This document shows positions 6,145 through 12,357 of a stretch of 64,000 nt of DNA, in pieces. The notes beneath the pieces were generated by a model. It was not told the origin of the DNA. It searched no databases and saw only the letters and a list, made by a program, of their open reading frames with translations. The stretch is from assembly GCA_029882535.1 (NCBI GenBank), contig JAOUKM010000001.1, forward strand, positions 1 through 64,000, read 5' to 3'. The position numbers and the translations under genes are program-made. The DNA comes from Candidatus Bathyarchaeota archaeon (lineage in GTDB: Archaea; Thermoproteota; Bathyarchaeia; Bathyarchaeales; SOJC01). How positions within the stretch are numbered: the first letter of the stretch is position 1; every line of letters starts with the position of its first letter.

Positions 6145-6690
6145 TTAAGCTTCGTTTTTGACTTCCACTAAATAGAATAGGTTTTCGTCAGGATCAGCAA
6201 ATAAGGCAGCATACCCACCCCAGTATTGCTTCTTAGGTGGCTCGATGAATTTCACACTTCTGTCACTCAGTCTTTTGTATTCTGCGTCAAGATCTTCGAC
6301 GGCAAAGTAGATGTTGGGTGCACCTTCCTTTCGTCCCTTTTTCTTGCGCTTTCTATTTTTCAGATTGGCTTTTTTTCCCCTATGAGAGACTCTATAGTGG
6401 AAATAATGAGTGTCGTGTTGTGACTTTGAGATTCTGGGTTTCAGTCTGGTGGCAGGCAACTGTGACAGTCTGGATAATTTTGTGGTATGCCTTTTGTTTT
6501 CTATGTGTGCTACTTCATGAGCCACCATGTACCTGAGTATATTCTCTGGTAGGGCTATGGCATCAAGCTGCAGAATTATCCTGTTACCTTTGAGTTTGGC
6601 AATTCTCCCTTTCTTGTTGTCAATTCTTTTTGCAATCTCAAAGCCTAAGTTTCCTAGAAGGTCAATTTTTCCTTCTTTTTTGTAGAATAA
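6145..6690 (-). pseudogene. composite remnant: YgjP-like metallopeptidase fused to the C-terminal half of a VOC domain
   Basis: One open frame joins two unrelated partial genes. The N-terminal part, open from just after an in-frame stop near 6690, reads ALPENILRYMVAHEVAHI and on to KRH. This is the HExxHxxxxxH centre of a YgjP/SprT-like zinc peptidase and has no usable start codon. After a basic low-complexity linker the last ~55 residues (NIYFAVEDLDAEYKRL ... ALFADPDENLFYLVEV) are the second half of a glyoxalase/VOC module. The VOC N-terminal half is missing. This looks like deletion-driven fusion of two decayed genes; the ATG at 6528 could still give a 127-residue product. Confidence 0.6.
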
Positions 6691-6829
6691 ATTTTACTAC
6701 CACCCATAGAAAATAGAGTGCCAGCAAGAGAGCAACCCATTCAAACATTTCTCTTGCATATACCCAAACAACTACCAGTGCAAAAATGATTGTTGCTAAG
6801 TTGACTAGAATTGTCGTCGAATATTTCAT
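6662..6829 (-). CDS. small membrane protein (55 aa)
   Basis: A 55-residue ORF from ATG (6829-6827) to TGA (6664-6662). It contains two hydrophobic segments (TILVNLATIIFALVVVWVY and WVALLLALYFLWVVVKFI) separated by a short charged turn, and ends in a basic tail (QKRRKN), as expected for a two-helix membrane hairpin. Its 3' end overlaps the open frame of the peptidase remnant. The function is unknown. Amino-acid composition and topology are the only evidence. Confidence 0.5.
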   Translation of the reverse strand: MKYSTTILVNLATIIFALVVVWVYAREMFEWVALLLALYFLWVVVKFILQKRRKN

Positions 6830-7324: not shown

Positions 7325-8437
7325 TTACGCTGCTGTCGCTAATTTCTCCTTTAAGGTTTCCTTATAAAGGTCTTCATATTTGGGCACAATTTTGTCAGGT
7401 GTATACTTCTCAAGAACCTTTCGCATAGCGTTATTTCCTAATTTCTTCTGCAAGTCTGAGTCTGTTAAAATCTTTAGAGAGTATTGAGCAAGCATTTCTA
7501 CATCTCCCACTTCAGTCAGATAACCATCGACACCATGAGAGATCAACTCTTTTAATCCTCCAACATTGGTGGCAATTACAGGAACTTCACAACTCATAGC
7601 TTCCAATGCAGCAAGTCCGAAACTTTCATCCTCTGATGGTAAGAGGAATAAATCACATTTGCCAATGATCTCCTGGACGTTCTTCACGTTTCCAAAGAAT
7701 TTTATGTTCTCTGATATCCCAAGGTTTCTCACCATTTCTTGGGCCTTAGGCCGTTCAGGCCCATCTCCAATGAGGAACAACTTGCATTCGACTTCTTGCA
7801 AGATTTCTTTAAAGGCCTTAATAATATCAGGTATTCGTTTTATTGGTCTGAAGTTTGATGAATGACATACAATCTTTTCTTTTCGATCTGTCTTCAATCT
7901 CTTGAACTTTTGAGGATCGACAAAATTTGGTATCATTTTAATTTCCCTTGTGATATCAAATTCAGCCACTGTGCGTTCTTTCAAGTATTCAGAAACTGCG
8001 GTCAATGCATCGCTATTTTGCATACTAAACTGTGTTACCTCTTTGTAAGAGGGATGACTTCCAACCAAGTAAGAGTCGGTACCGTGAAGTGTAGTTACCA
8101 CCTTCACAGAGTCATTACAAATTTTTTTAGCTAAATAAGCAGATGTGGCATTTGGAACGGCATAATGAGCATGAACTATATCTAGACTGCAGGATTTTAT
8201 GACCTCTGAGAGTTTTGAGATTAATGCCAGAGAATAACAACATGGAACACGCTCGAAAAGTGGGTATGAGAGAAGCTCCACCTTATGAAAGGAGAAATCT
8301 GTCTTCTCCTCCAATCGAACAGGCTTGTCATAGCTGACCAAATGTAACTCATGCTTCTCTGCCAGCAGGTGCGCCAGTTCGGTAGCAATGATTCCGCTTC
8401 CGCCATATGTTGGAAAACATGCAATGCCTATTCTCAT
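7325..8437 (-). CDS. bshA: bacillithiol biosynthesis glycosyltransferase BshA
   Basis: A GT4 (GT-B) glycosyltransferase of 370 residues. It transfers GlcNAc from UDP-GlcNAc to L-malate, the first step of bacillithiol synthesis. Features specific to BshA rather than generic GT4 are FPTYGGSGIIATELA at the N-terminus, HAHYAVPNATSAYLA, TTLHGTDSYLVGSHPSY near 115-130, and AVSEYL/IPNFVD. The nucleotide-sugar E-x7-E region is EDESFGLAALEAM. The start overlaps the bshB1 stop by 4 bases (ATGA), so translation is probably coupled. Third gene of the bshC-bshB1-bshA operon. Ends in TAA at 7325. Confidence 0.93.
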   Translation of the reverse strand: MRIGIACFPTYGGSGIIATELAHLLAEKHELHLVSYDKPVRLEEKTDFSFHKVELLSYPLFERVPCCYSLALISKLSEVIKSCSLDIVHAHYAVPNATSAYLAKKICNDSVKVVTTLHGTDSYLVGSHPSYKEVTQFSMQNSDALTAVSEYLKERTVAEFDITREIKMIPNFVDPQKFKRLKTDRKEKIVCHSSNFRPIKRIPDIIKAFKEILQEVECKLFLIGDGPERPKAQEMVRNLGISENIKFFGNVKNVQEIIGKCDLFLLPSEDESFGLAALEAMSCEVPVIATNVGGLKELISHGVDGYLTEVGDVEMLAQYSLKILTDSDLQKKLGNNAMRKVLEKYTPDKIVPKYEDLYKETLKEKLATAA

Positions 8438-9111
8438 TTCGAGAAGACCACCGGATCATCGATCATTAAAGGAGTATTGCAGAAGAATGGTTCGCCATAT
8501 TTGACACCTACTCTTGAACCATAGATTTGGTCTCTTAATTCTGTTGATTTAAGCAAGCCTTCCATTCCTAACATTAATCCTATCTGAGATTTGTAGGCTT
8601 TAATGGCCTCTAATTTCTTTCCATGACTCTGCGTAACATCGACGATAAACGATGGAACAAACGATTTATGTAACATGTAATAAGTAACCATTTTAACTTG
8701 GTGCACTTCGTTATCTGTTCGCACTCTTGATAGTTTGGCAAAGAAGACTGCTTTATCAACAAGCTTCCTGCTCGCTGCGTGGTCTGGATGATGATCATCC
8801 CCATATGGTGCTATCAGAAGTGAGGGGATATATTGCCTAATCACACCTGCTAATTTTTTAGCCTCATCAAAACCAGAGCTTACTCTACAATCTCCGAAAT
8901 CCATGTTTTCACGAATCTGTACACCAAGTAAATCAGCTGCTTTAGTTGCCTCTTGCATCCTGATGTCGGCTGTTCCTTCAGTTCCCAACTCTCCCTTAGT
9001 AAGGTCCACTATACCAATGCGATATCCCTTGCTACCCATCTTTGCGATGAGACCGCCACAACAAAGCTCTACATCATCAGGATGAGGGCTAATGGCAAGG
9101 ATGTCTAACAT
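8434..9111 (-). CDS. bshB: bacillithiol biosynthesis deacetylase BshB1
   Basis: A LmbE/PIG-L zinc deacetylase of 225 residues that removes acetyl from GlcNAc-malate. SPHPDDVE (His10, Asp12, Asp13) is the zinc/catalytic motif and DDHHPDH near 105-111 supplies the third ligand. The segment VDLTKGELGTEGT and the MQEATKAADLLGV block are typical of BshB1 and not of mycothiol MshB. It lies in the operon: its ATG lies inside the end of bshC when bshC is read through its frameshift, and its stop overlaps bshA. Substrate assignment rests on the flanking bshA and bshC. Confidence 0.93.
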   Translation of the reverse strand: MLDILAISPHPDDVELCCGGLIAKMGSKGYRIGIVDLTKGELGTEGTADIRMQEATKAADLLGVQIRENMDFGDCRVSSGFDEAKKLAGVIRQYIPSLLIAPYGDDHHPDHAASRKLVDKAVFFAKLSRVRTDNEVHQVKMVTYYMLHKSFVPSFIVDVTQSHGKKLEAIKAYKSQIGLMLGMEGLLKSTELRDQIYGSRVGVKYGEPFFCNTPLMIDDPVVFSK

Positions 9112-10711
9112 TTAATCACCCTATGTTCACCATAATCGGCTTCAATAAAGTTTTCGTAAACATCTGTCAAAAATTTTTTTCCGAATTTTATGATGTACTC
9201 CAAGACATTTATCTGCCTTTCTTGGAGGTGGCTATTAGGAAAGAGATTGTTATATGCTTTTGTAATCTGTCGTCTGACAACCAGATTATGCTCTTACGCT
9301 TCGAAGCGATCTTGTCTTCCAAGACTTCTATTGTCTTAAGTATTTTACCTTTTGTGAGTGCGCAAGGTTCAATGAGAGCCTTGTCAATAGACTCAGCTTG
9401 TCGAATCACTTCAGACATGTTCCTCGAAACTTCGCTCTTAAAGGAATCAAAGACATCCCCCATCTTCTTCCTAGCTAATTCTTTCAATAGTTTCGCCGGG
9501 TTCCAAAGTTCATAAATTTCTACATTATATTTTTCAAGAACTTTGGAAACCTTTTTCTCGACTATTGTAGCCCCAAATCTCGGAAATATAACCGGTGCCT
9601 CTAGGGAGAAAAAGTTGTATAGTCCTTTCAATTGGGCTTGATAAGCTATCTCGTTTGGTCCAGCCACATATGCGAACGTGGGAAAGAGGAAATCCTGAGT
9701 TATAGGTCTTGTGAAAGCATTCGCACTAAATCTGGAGGGATTGCCATCTAATAGATCAAGTAGTTCTTTCTGTGAAAAAGTTTCATTGGCAGCCTGGAAT
9801 TTGCCATTGTATGTGACTCGCAGTCGCTTTCCATCTTCGTTCAAGAGAAAGAAATTGCATATGTTGGATTTCTTGTGGATTCTAGGAGAATAACCAAGCT
9901 TCTCAAGCTCTAAACCTGCTCTGTTCAAGATCTGAGTGCATTCAGTTGGGCTTCTAATTAACCTGTTAAAAACAGGAATCATCAAATCTCTAAAGTGTTG
10001 CGGCTCCATCATGACAAGTCCTAATTCTCCAAAAAGCCAAATCATAAACCTGGAGAAGAAATCTCCTATAGTGGATGAATTTTCTATGATTTCTTTGCTC
10101 TTTCTCAGTAAAGGCGCTTTAAACTCGGAGTCTGGAGATACATCCTCTATGACAGTTAACATCTTATTCAATTCGAATTTGTCAAGACTCATATGTGAAA
10201 GAGCTACGTCCTTTGCTGCACAGTCATAATGAATTTTGTATGGCTCATTTTCCATGAACATGTTAATGTGATTAACCTCAGAAAAGTCATGATCCTCAGA
10301 TGCATTCCAGAAAATGGGAACGAGCGAATATTTCTTGGTAGACAATCTTTCACAAATGACAATGGTAGAAATTGCTTTGTATACTGTGTACAATGGACCT
10401 GAGAACAAGCCGGGCTGTTGACCTGTTATCACAGCATAAGTCTCTGCTTGTGAAAGAGATTCTATATTTTGAGTCACTCGGTTGGGCGCGTTTATTTTCT
10501 TGTTGTAATCCAGCAACTTGTCTACAAGTCTCTGACGGTCTACGTTGCATTTTCGAACGGTTGGCTCTCTGAAATGTTTTGGGAACACGTGCTTTAGATT
10601 ATTTGCATAATTGATGTAGTCGATGGTTATCCTCTCTGAAGTTACGAATTCATAAGGCAAGACACTAGATTTCACTTTAGATCCCCTTTTGCTTTTGAGA
10701 TTTGTCACCAA
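9105..10711 (-). CDS. bshC: bacillithiol biosynthesis cysteine-adding enzyme BshC (one apparent frameshift near 9293)
   Basis: Adds cysteine to GlcN-malate, the last step of bacillithiol synthesis. Family motifs are TGQQPGLFSGPLY (96-108), PIFWNASEDHDF (132-143), FPTFAYVAGPNEIAYQAQL and PVIFPRFG. The uninterrupted frame stops at 9209, but the conserved C-terminus (LFPNSHLQERQINVLEYI ... YGEHRVIKC, stop 9105-9107) continues in another frame. Inserting one G between the bases complementary to 9292-9294 joins them into about 535 residues, the normal BshC length (~540), ending 7 bases inside bshB1. The start is uncertain: TTG 10711, GTG 10708, GTG 10675 or TTG 10660. First gene of the operon. Confidence 0.9.
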
Positions 10712-10850
10712 AGTTATTTTAACCTATACCCAATTGCGTATTTGTCCATTGTGTTTCCTTGCTGCTGTGTTTTCTGTTAATGTGTGTGCGTTAATAGAAA
10801 ACATTTTTGTTGGCACCAATTCTAATGGGGTACTACTCCTTCAACAAGCA

Positions 10851-10900: not shown

Positions 10901-11383
10901 ATGTCTGAGAAAGTTGCATTAATAAAAAGGTTCGTAGAAATAGCCTTCGAGAGATTTGACTCGGCGATGAAGGACCTCTCTGAAAAGGAGATTGATTGGC
11001 GACCTCTAAAAGAGACTAACTCCATAAGGTGGATACTTACCCATCTCTCCCAACAATGGAATGTAGGAATACACAAAATCCTAAAGGGTGACCCAGAGTA
11101 TAAGCCAAAAGACTGGTCTGAAGACTACATTGACAACAGATCATATTCTTTAAGCAAAATAATGAGTGACATAGAAAAGGGAAGAAAAAATTTGATAAAT
11201 AGTCTCGAAGAGCTGACTCTGGCAGAACTCGAAGTCGAAATACCCCTCTGGGGAGGAAAAAGGAAACGACAATATGGTCTCTTGGCTTATGTCTCTGAGA
11301 TTTTCCACCATGTTGGGCAAATTGCTTATATCAGAGGTGCCATCAAACGGCGAAAGCAGACAGATGACCACTTCCTAACCTAA
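10901..11383 (+). CDS. DinB/YfiT-fold protein, putative bacillithiol-dependent S-transferase or hydrolase
   Basis: A 160-residue four-helix DinB-fold protein. WILTHLSQQW provides His48, and SEIFHHVGQI (132-141) is the C-terminal metal motif, normally HxxxHHxGQ. Here the first His of that motif is Glu133, so the predicted metal triad is His48-Glu133-His137. In Bacillus and Staphylococcus, DinB-fold enzymes such as BstA use bacillithiol as co-substrate. Divergent placement beside bshC makes the same role here the best inference. Alternatives are another thiol-dependent enzyme or an uncharacterised metalloprotein. Confidence 0.75.
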   Translation: MSEKVALIKRFVEIAFERFDSAMKDLSEKEIDWRPLKETNSIRWILTHLSQQWNVGIHKILKGDPEYKPKDWSEDYIDNRSYSLSKIMSDIEKGRKNLINSLEELTLAELEVEIPLWGGKRKRQYGLLAYVSEIFHHVGQIAYIRGAIKRRKQTDDHFLT

Positions 11384-11403: not shown

Positions 11404-12357
11404 TTATTTTTCTAGTTTCAATAATGTCGCAGCGTTTTTATAAAAAATCTTCTCAATGCTTTCCTTATCGAGCCCTATTGTTCGGCAAGCTTTTAGCTGC
11501 TCCATAAGATATGGGGTACTGAAACCTCTTGGAAAATAGCTTGAGTCGCTTCCAAAGATCAAACGATCTGGACCAACAGTCTCGATAGCCTTCCTAAAAA
11601 GCCCTTTTAAGTCCATTTCGAATGGCATCCAATGCATCCAACGGTTTGACCCCGAAGTATCTATGTATACATTGGGACATGACCAACAAAGTAGAAGAAG
11701 CTCTCTGAGGTACCCCGCGCCAAAATGGGGAATGACGAACGGAATTCTCGGAAACATCTTTGCAACCTCCCATAGTGTAAGCGGGTTCATATTCCTTAAA
11801 TCAAGGGATGGCCCTCCACCTCCACCAAGGACACCGAAATGAATTATCACAGGAACTTCAAGTTTCTCCACAGTTTCCCAAACGGGGTAAACTGACTTAT
11901 CATCTATAGATTTCATCTGCGAGGATGCTATCATTTTGTATCCCTTTAATCCAAGCTTTTTAATTGCCCTCTCAAGCTCTGAATACGAATCCTCCGAGAA
12001 TATACTATGGTGGGCAAACCCTGAAAATTTGTCGGGGTATAACCTCACGATTTTAGATAAATTATCGTTTCCCCCACCTGTCACAAAATTTACCCTTTCC
12101 ACACCTTTGCTAGCCAAATCCGTAGCCCACCTAGCTGCTTGCTCCTCATCTGAAAGTGTCCCAGATTCAGGAGGCGCAAAGCCCCAAAGTTTCCTCATTT
12201 TTTCCTTATCTTGCATTGACTGCTCTACAAGTAACTGAGCCTTCTCCATTCCATATCTCTCAGCTAACTTTTTTCTCCATGAGGCAACCCAATTCACCCA
12301 TTTTGTAGTCGGAAAATGAGCATGGAAGTCGATTATTTTCAATCCGTTAGAGGTCAT
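11404..12357 (-). CDS. amidohydrolase_2 family metal-dependent hydrolase/decarboxylase (ACMSD-like)
   Basis: A 317-residue TIM-barrel protein. Metal motifs are DFHAHF near the N-terminus (HxH), PVIIHFG, PFVIPHFGAGY and LIFGSDSSYFPRG (Asp). This arrangement is that of the amidohydrolase_2/ACMSD family, whose members decarboxylate or hydrolyse aromatic acids and related compounds. It is convergent with the DinB gene, with about 20 bases between stops. Whether it belongs to thiol metabolism is unknown. Substrate not assigned. Confidence 0.82.
   Translation of the reverse strand: MTSNGLKIIDFHAHFPTTKWVNWVASWRKKLAERYGMEKAQLLVEQSMQDKEKMRKLWGFAPPESGTLSDEEQAARWATDLASKGVERVNFVTGGGNDNLSKIVRLYPDKFSGFAHHSIFSEDSYSELERAIKKLGLKGYKMIASSQMKSIDDKSVYPVWETVEKLEVPVIIHFGVLGGGGGPSLDLRNMNPLTLWEVAKMFPRIPFVIPHFGAGYLRELLLLCWSCPNVYIDTSGSNRWMHWMPFEMDLKGLFRKAIETVGPDRLIFGSDSSYFPRGFSTPYLMEQLKACRTIGLDKESIEKIFYKNAATLLKLEK

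Follow-up and report, generated by a model that had tools for sequence, protein, structure and literature searches.

A predicted bacillithiol biosynthesis cluster in Bathyarchaeia

Introduction

To our knowledge, bacillithiol (BSH) has so far been chemically shown in bacteria only. Passages of the 2020 review "Redox and Thiols in Archaea" report archaeal matches to BshA and BshC, mostly in Asgard archaea, and consider archaeal BSH possible; these passages do not include a complete operon, a BshB search, Bathyarchaeia, a phylogeny or accessory genes (PMC7278568). A 2025 survey reported the complete pathway in no archaeon (PMC12719100). In the open-licence literature we found no paper on bacillithiol in Bathyarchaeia or Bathyarchaeota.

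Among proteins acting downstream of bacterial BSH synthesis, the DinB/STL superfamily includes bacillithiol transferases such as B. subtilis BstA with its histidines H67, H160 and H164 (PMC5815605), and BSH conjugates are cleaved at the Bca/BshB2 step (PMC10950700). Here we compare with these systems a locus from a 64,000-nucleotide stretch (the window) of a Candidatus Bathyarchaeota genome.

Results and discussion

The genes bshC, bshB1 and bshA lie in this order at positions 7325-10711 of the window, on the minus strand, as an overlapping operon. The first gene, bshC (9105..10675, minus strand; TIGR03998), is predicted to encode bacillithiol synthase, the cysteine-adding enzyme. It is followed on the same strand by bshB1 (8434..9111; TIGR04001) for a zinc-dependent GlcNAc-malate deacetylase of the LmbE/PIG-L fold and by bshA (7325..8437; TIGR03999) for a UDP-GlcNAc:L-malate glycosyltransferase of family GT4, the last two genes overlapping by ATGA.

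For each product, the score exceeded the curated cut-off of the matching NCBIfam equivalog: 470.2 bits vs 273.7 for BshA (132 bits for the next family), 232.2 vs 182.5 for BshB1 (62.6 bits for the BshB2 profile) and, even without its shifted C-terminus (see below), 382.5 vs 265.8 for BshC. The claim of an earlier note on this DNA that all three bacillithiol enzymes are encoded is thus borne out. The same is true of its claim that the motifs are family-specific rather than generic, as the motifs it quoted were found and all three products rank far above other GT4 and LmbE families. Scores nearer to those families would have spoken against the note; with the Bsh profiles far higher, a generic GT4/LmbE reading of the locus was ruled out.

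In searches of solved structures, BshA, BshB and BshC entries came first for the respective proteins. The best matches for BshA were 2jjm and 3mbo followed by 5d00, which is named GlcNAc-malate synthase (E-values from 1e-87 to 1e-93), and the protein carries the motifs GGSG, HGTD and E271-x7-E279. In the alignment of BshB1 with 2ixd, residues H10, D12, D13, H108 and H111 together with R51 match H12, D14, D15, H110 and H113 together with R53, which we take to be the active site of that enzyme. The sole solved-structure match of BshC was B. subtilis BshC (4wbd). In comparison with relatives, dN/dS was 0.10-0.18 in all three genes.

Canonical BshC was found in 14 of the 257 genomes of the window's class, within three families of one order, so the locus recurs far beyond chance. 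Thirteen of these genomes exceed the BshC cut-off, and in the remaining one (G103) the gene is partial. Among 398 genomes sampled from the phylum, the cut-off was passed by the window's own genome alone. At 11 of the 13 other loci bshA and bshB1 adjoin bshC at full length; at L045 bshA is a 135-aa ORF and at L053 the contig ends inside bshB1. The closest matches in a search with the BshC alignment were from Candidatus Bathyarchaeota, six of them chromosome records, and single-contig Bathyarchaeota genomes carry the operon (CP070730, CP070649, CP070835, CP070765, CP070683 and CP070749), which confirms the archaeal host that had been assumed from the window.

Complete operons are also present in Theionarchaea (canonical BshC in 2/115 genomes of the class) and in Heimdallarchaea/Asgard bins (8/59 genomes of one class), and one further Thermoproteota bin (L077) has all three bsh genes within 6 kb. 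At the gene level, the operons of Bathyarchaeota, Theionarchaea and Heimdallarchaea contradict the 2025 survey (PMC12719100). The order bshC-bshB1-bshA is common to the other Bathyarchaeota loci, Theionarchaea and Heimdallarchaea, and several bacterial loci share it (bshC-bshB-bshA). Within the Bathyarchaeia, transfers and losses of bsh are suggested by its patchy presence, by flanks that are not shared and by a BshC tree in which the families are intermingled, transfer among members of the class being plausible.

Two further genes belong to the bsh cluster, because they recur beside the operon in relatives and are nearly restricted to bsh-positive genomes. One, divergent from bshC, encodes a protein of the DinB_2 fold (10901..11383, plus strand; PF12867, 50.7 bits vs 24.8) that also scores 32 bits for PF04978, the mycothiol-S-transferase family. 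The other encodes an Amidohydro_2 metal-dependent hydrolase (11404..12357, minus strand; PF04909, 124.7 bits), whose presumed metal-site residues H12, H14, H173, H211 and D271 are invariant in 13 homologues; its relatives of known structure are uncharacterised amidohydrolases and decarboxylases. Counting as bsh-positive the 33 of 257 class genomes with the canonical system or the divergent one described below, the DinB gene was present in 27/33 bsh-positive and 0/224 other genomes and a close Amidohydro_2 homologue in 25/33 and 1/224 (Fisher p of 4e-31 and 1e-26, respectively, both uncorrected for shared ancestry). G103 keeps both genes even though ~320 kb separate them from its operon. The DinB gene is absent from 5 of the 14 canonical bsh-positive genomes and the amidohydrolase from two; the Amidohydro_2 gene also clusters with the divergent BshA/BshC-like system. 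The complete overlapping operon described in the earlier note therefore needs to be restated: the three genes are where it placed them, but bshC is frameshifted as assembled and the unit is larger, with the DinB and Amidohydro_2 genes.

The DinB-fold protein resembles transferases of the BstA/YfiT type in its fold, similar size, predicted metal site and tie to BSH genes. The likeness holds at the superfamily level only: in place of the three-histidine triad of BstA, the candidate metal ligands are H48, E133 and H137, with the glutamate at the presumed third position. Since E133 replaces the third histidine, we classify the protein as DinB-fold and transferase-like, not as BstA; it is predicted to be bacillithiol-S-transferase-like, in a role that is speculative. 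By analogy, the Amidohydro_2 enzyme may process BSH conjugates: if it were an amidase, it would fill the same step as Bca/BshB2 and Mca, which, unlike it, have the LmbE fold.

Because of the equivalog scores, the structure matches, the kept gene order, the purifying selection, the recurrence in archaea and the co-occurrence of the accessory genes, we consider the locus to be a maintained archaeal BSH cluster, with a probability of roughly 80%. Archaea, judging from these sequences, very probably make bacillithiol. Going by the chemistry of the families, BshA would join UDP-GlcNAc to L-malate, BshB1 would remove the acetyl group with the help of zinc and BshC would attach L-cysteine to the amine thus exposed; the product would be BSH (Cys-GlcN-malate). 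The specificity for malate and cysteine is that expected from the family. BSH would then be the low-molecular-weight thiol of the cell, or one of them. Transfer of BSH to electrophiles would probably fall to the DinB-fold protein and the processing of BSH or its conjugates probably to the Amidohydro_2 enzyme, both roles being speculative.

In comparison with the pathway of Bacillus, Deinococcus-Thermus and Bacteroidota, the same three families are employed and the aligned active-site residues are kept. The archaeal system differs in its host, in forming a phylogenetic group of its own, in the DinB and Amidohydro_2 genes alongside and in the redox partners. No BSH-disulfide reductase YpdA/Bdr was detected in 16 genomes (the best score was 94.5 bits vs a cut-off of 339.9, which three of the control genomes passed), and BrxA/BrxB had no match in 16 genomes, with the B. 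subtilis control positive. Thus, the known route of BSH recycling was not found in these genomes.

We turn to the origin of the genes, a question independent of their function. In the concatenated tree, the archaeal bsh sequences (Bathyarchaeota, one other Thermoproteota bin, Theionarchaea and Heimdallarchaea) and those of Ca. Aerophobetes were split from all other sampled bacteria (100/100), and the same split was recovered with BshC (99), BshB (98/95) and BshA (97/97) singly. A recent gain from bacteria is thus not supported; the earlier note had held a gain by transfer to be probable. A recent transfer with Ca. Aerophobetes or their kin as donor would agree with their being the closest non-archaeal relatives in the BshC alignment search (47-50% identity) and adjoining Bathyarchaeota in the concatenated tree (99/97), with the mostly bacterial range of known BSH users and with the patchy presence in Bathyarchaeia. 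Nevertheless, the Aerophobetes fall inside a group otherwise made up of four archaeal lineages, and a role as recipients is therefore at least as credible for them as one as donors. The archaeal proteins form a group of their own on long branches, and the Bathyarchaeota have a long stem (0.44) and are a diverse group. An archaea-only group without Aerophobetes was rejected by the AU test (p=0.009), which fits a transfer from archaea to Aerophobetes equally well. With the nearest bacteria nested among archaea, we did not retain a recent bacterial donor, and regard such an origin as unlikely.

When the BshA tree was rooted by outside GT4s, the sampled bacterial BshAs appeared as one branch inside the archaeal diversity; because the outgroup branches are very long, this unreliable root is only suggestive. 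Bacterial sampling in the trees is also uneven, since retrieval by pattern favours sequences resembling Bathyarchaeota BshC. Bacteria might even owe the bacillithiol pathway to archaea.

The same long branches leave some room for a different product, that is, a bacillithiol-like thiol made with an acceptor other than malate or an amino acid other than cysteine, or carrying a modification as in N-methyl-BSH. N-Me-BSH is known in anaerobes (PMC6336425; PMC12719100), and the accessory genes are unlike those of bacteria. However, all three enzymes pass the cut-offs for BSH enzymes, not for MshA/MshB, and in their motifs and aligned active-site residues they agree with the BSH enzymes of known structure, so we judge another thiol to be quite improbable.

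As assembled, the main frame of bshC (the mechanically called ORF) spans 9209-10711. Nucleotide alignment with three relatives (L051, L048 and L055) places a single-base deletion at 9294..9296 (minus strand), after which the final ~60 codons lie in a different frame; that frame would end at TAG 9107-9105, overlapping the bshB1 ATG at 9111. Of the 13 relatives that have bshC, 12 carry it in a frame of full length (at least 523 aa), the exception being G103 with a 410-aa ORF whose profile match starts at position 218. Were bshC a pseudogene in this strain, BSH would have been lost here while still made by relatives. The one-base deletion, which is what would favour such a loss, is the sole defect seen, bshB1 and bshA being intact, and single-base indels are a common error in draft assemblies. 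The sequence beyond the deletion looks constrained (dN/dS 0.11-0.27, as against 0.14-0.18 before it), and hence the deletion either stems from faulty assembly or arose recently by mutation; a loss of BSH in the window's strain is very unlikely. In the same assembly, a minus-strand ORF at 6145-6528 matches the C-terminal half only of a glyoxalase/VOC protein and looks truncated or frameshifted, like bshC.

The likely start of bshC is GTG 10675 rather than TTG 10711, because the GTG is kept in 8/8 aligned loci. About 40 nt upstream of it lies a conserved element, GGTATAGGTTAAAATAA (10714..10730, minus strand), whose core is kept in 8 loci although the upstream sequence has otherwise largely diverged; it is a probable TATA-like core promoter of bshC. 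Between bshC and the DinB gene, the window also has a 13-bp inverted repeat (TGTTTTCTATTAA / TTAACAGAAAACA, spacer 10; 10768-10803). It was absent from the 12 relatives searched and was dropped as a candidate operator.

A chimera of assembly or binning, with bacterial DNA in an archaeal bin, which the earlier note had raised against itself and for which an 83-contig draft with 2.9% estimated contamination gives some occasion, is excluded by the recurrence of the operon in single-contig Bathyarchaeota: bshC is 57-77% identical in 13 other genomes of the same order, seven of them single-contig, the source contig measures 168 kb and the GC content of the bsh genes is just slightly below that of their neighbours (39-42% vs 43-50%).

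Beyond the canonical operon, a family of Bathyarchaeia (f27) has a true BshA (>390 bits) beside a BshC-like protein of mostly 580-600 aa. Two of these BshC-like proteins were scanned and reached 61.8 and 39.3 bits, below the TIGR03998 cut-off of 265.8. Aligned with the BshC profile by hhalign, the protein gave a probability of 95, and the sole significant Foldseek match of its predicted model (mean pLDDT 64) was BshC 4wbd (E 1.2e-10). The profile comparison and the model, which is of moderate confidence, show the protein to be a distant homologue of BshC, and its conserved Cys insert looks like a zinc ribbon. The f27 clusters often hold an LmbE protein that does not reach the BshB1 cut-off plus the same Amidohydro_2 and DinB genes, and on gene content they are a predicted second bacillithiol-like system. 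The divergent protein stands beside a bona fide BshA at L058, L059, L060, L186 and L188; at L059 a Thioredoxin_9 protein, a candidate recycling partner, is encoded directly downstream of bshA (6192-6785).

In Heimdallarchaeia, BshC homologues of some strength were found in 53/59 genomes of the class. Of six loci inspected, five have bshA and a similar, divergent bshC-like gene in tail-to-tail orientation; at L178-L182, which show this arrangement, no deacetylase gene adjoins. Even weaker BshC-like proteins (552-576 aa) were seen near LmbE-family genes at L184 (same phylum, family f61), L062 and L185.

Tentatively, these data could reflect an old archaeal bacillithiol lineage in two forms, the canonical operon, passed on to Aerophobetes, and a divergent form in many Heimdallarchaeia and in family f27 that pairs BshA in tail-to-tail orientation with the remote BshC homologue, which in f27 has the zinc-ribbon-like insert. 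Within Bathyarchaeia, the two forms would have the DinB-fold and Amidohydro_2 proteins in common, the Amidohydro_2 protein being an undescribed bacillithiol-processing enzyme. We offer this as a possibility that we hold less probable than its opposite.

Conclusions

The earlier note called the thiol unrecognised in this lineage. This is too strong, as passages of the 2020 review had already proposed a possible archaeal BSH (PMC7278568); the complete operons go beyond that proposal. In view of that review and of the 2025 survey, what we describe is a pathway already known, now placed in a new setting at the level of domains and anticipated in part, and the accessory genes and the divergent variant are the more novel leads. 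With complete operons present in archaeal genomes of a single contig, the prediction of archaeal BSH becomes concrete and testable.

Bathyarchaeia are abundant sediment archaea. A maintained BSH cluster would extend a major thiol system to them and to the Asgard relatives of eukaryotes, and the co-occurrence of the accessory genes with it points to new candidate bacillithiol-using enzymes.
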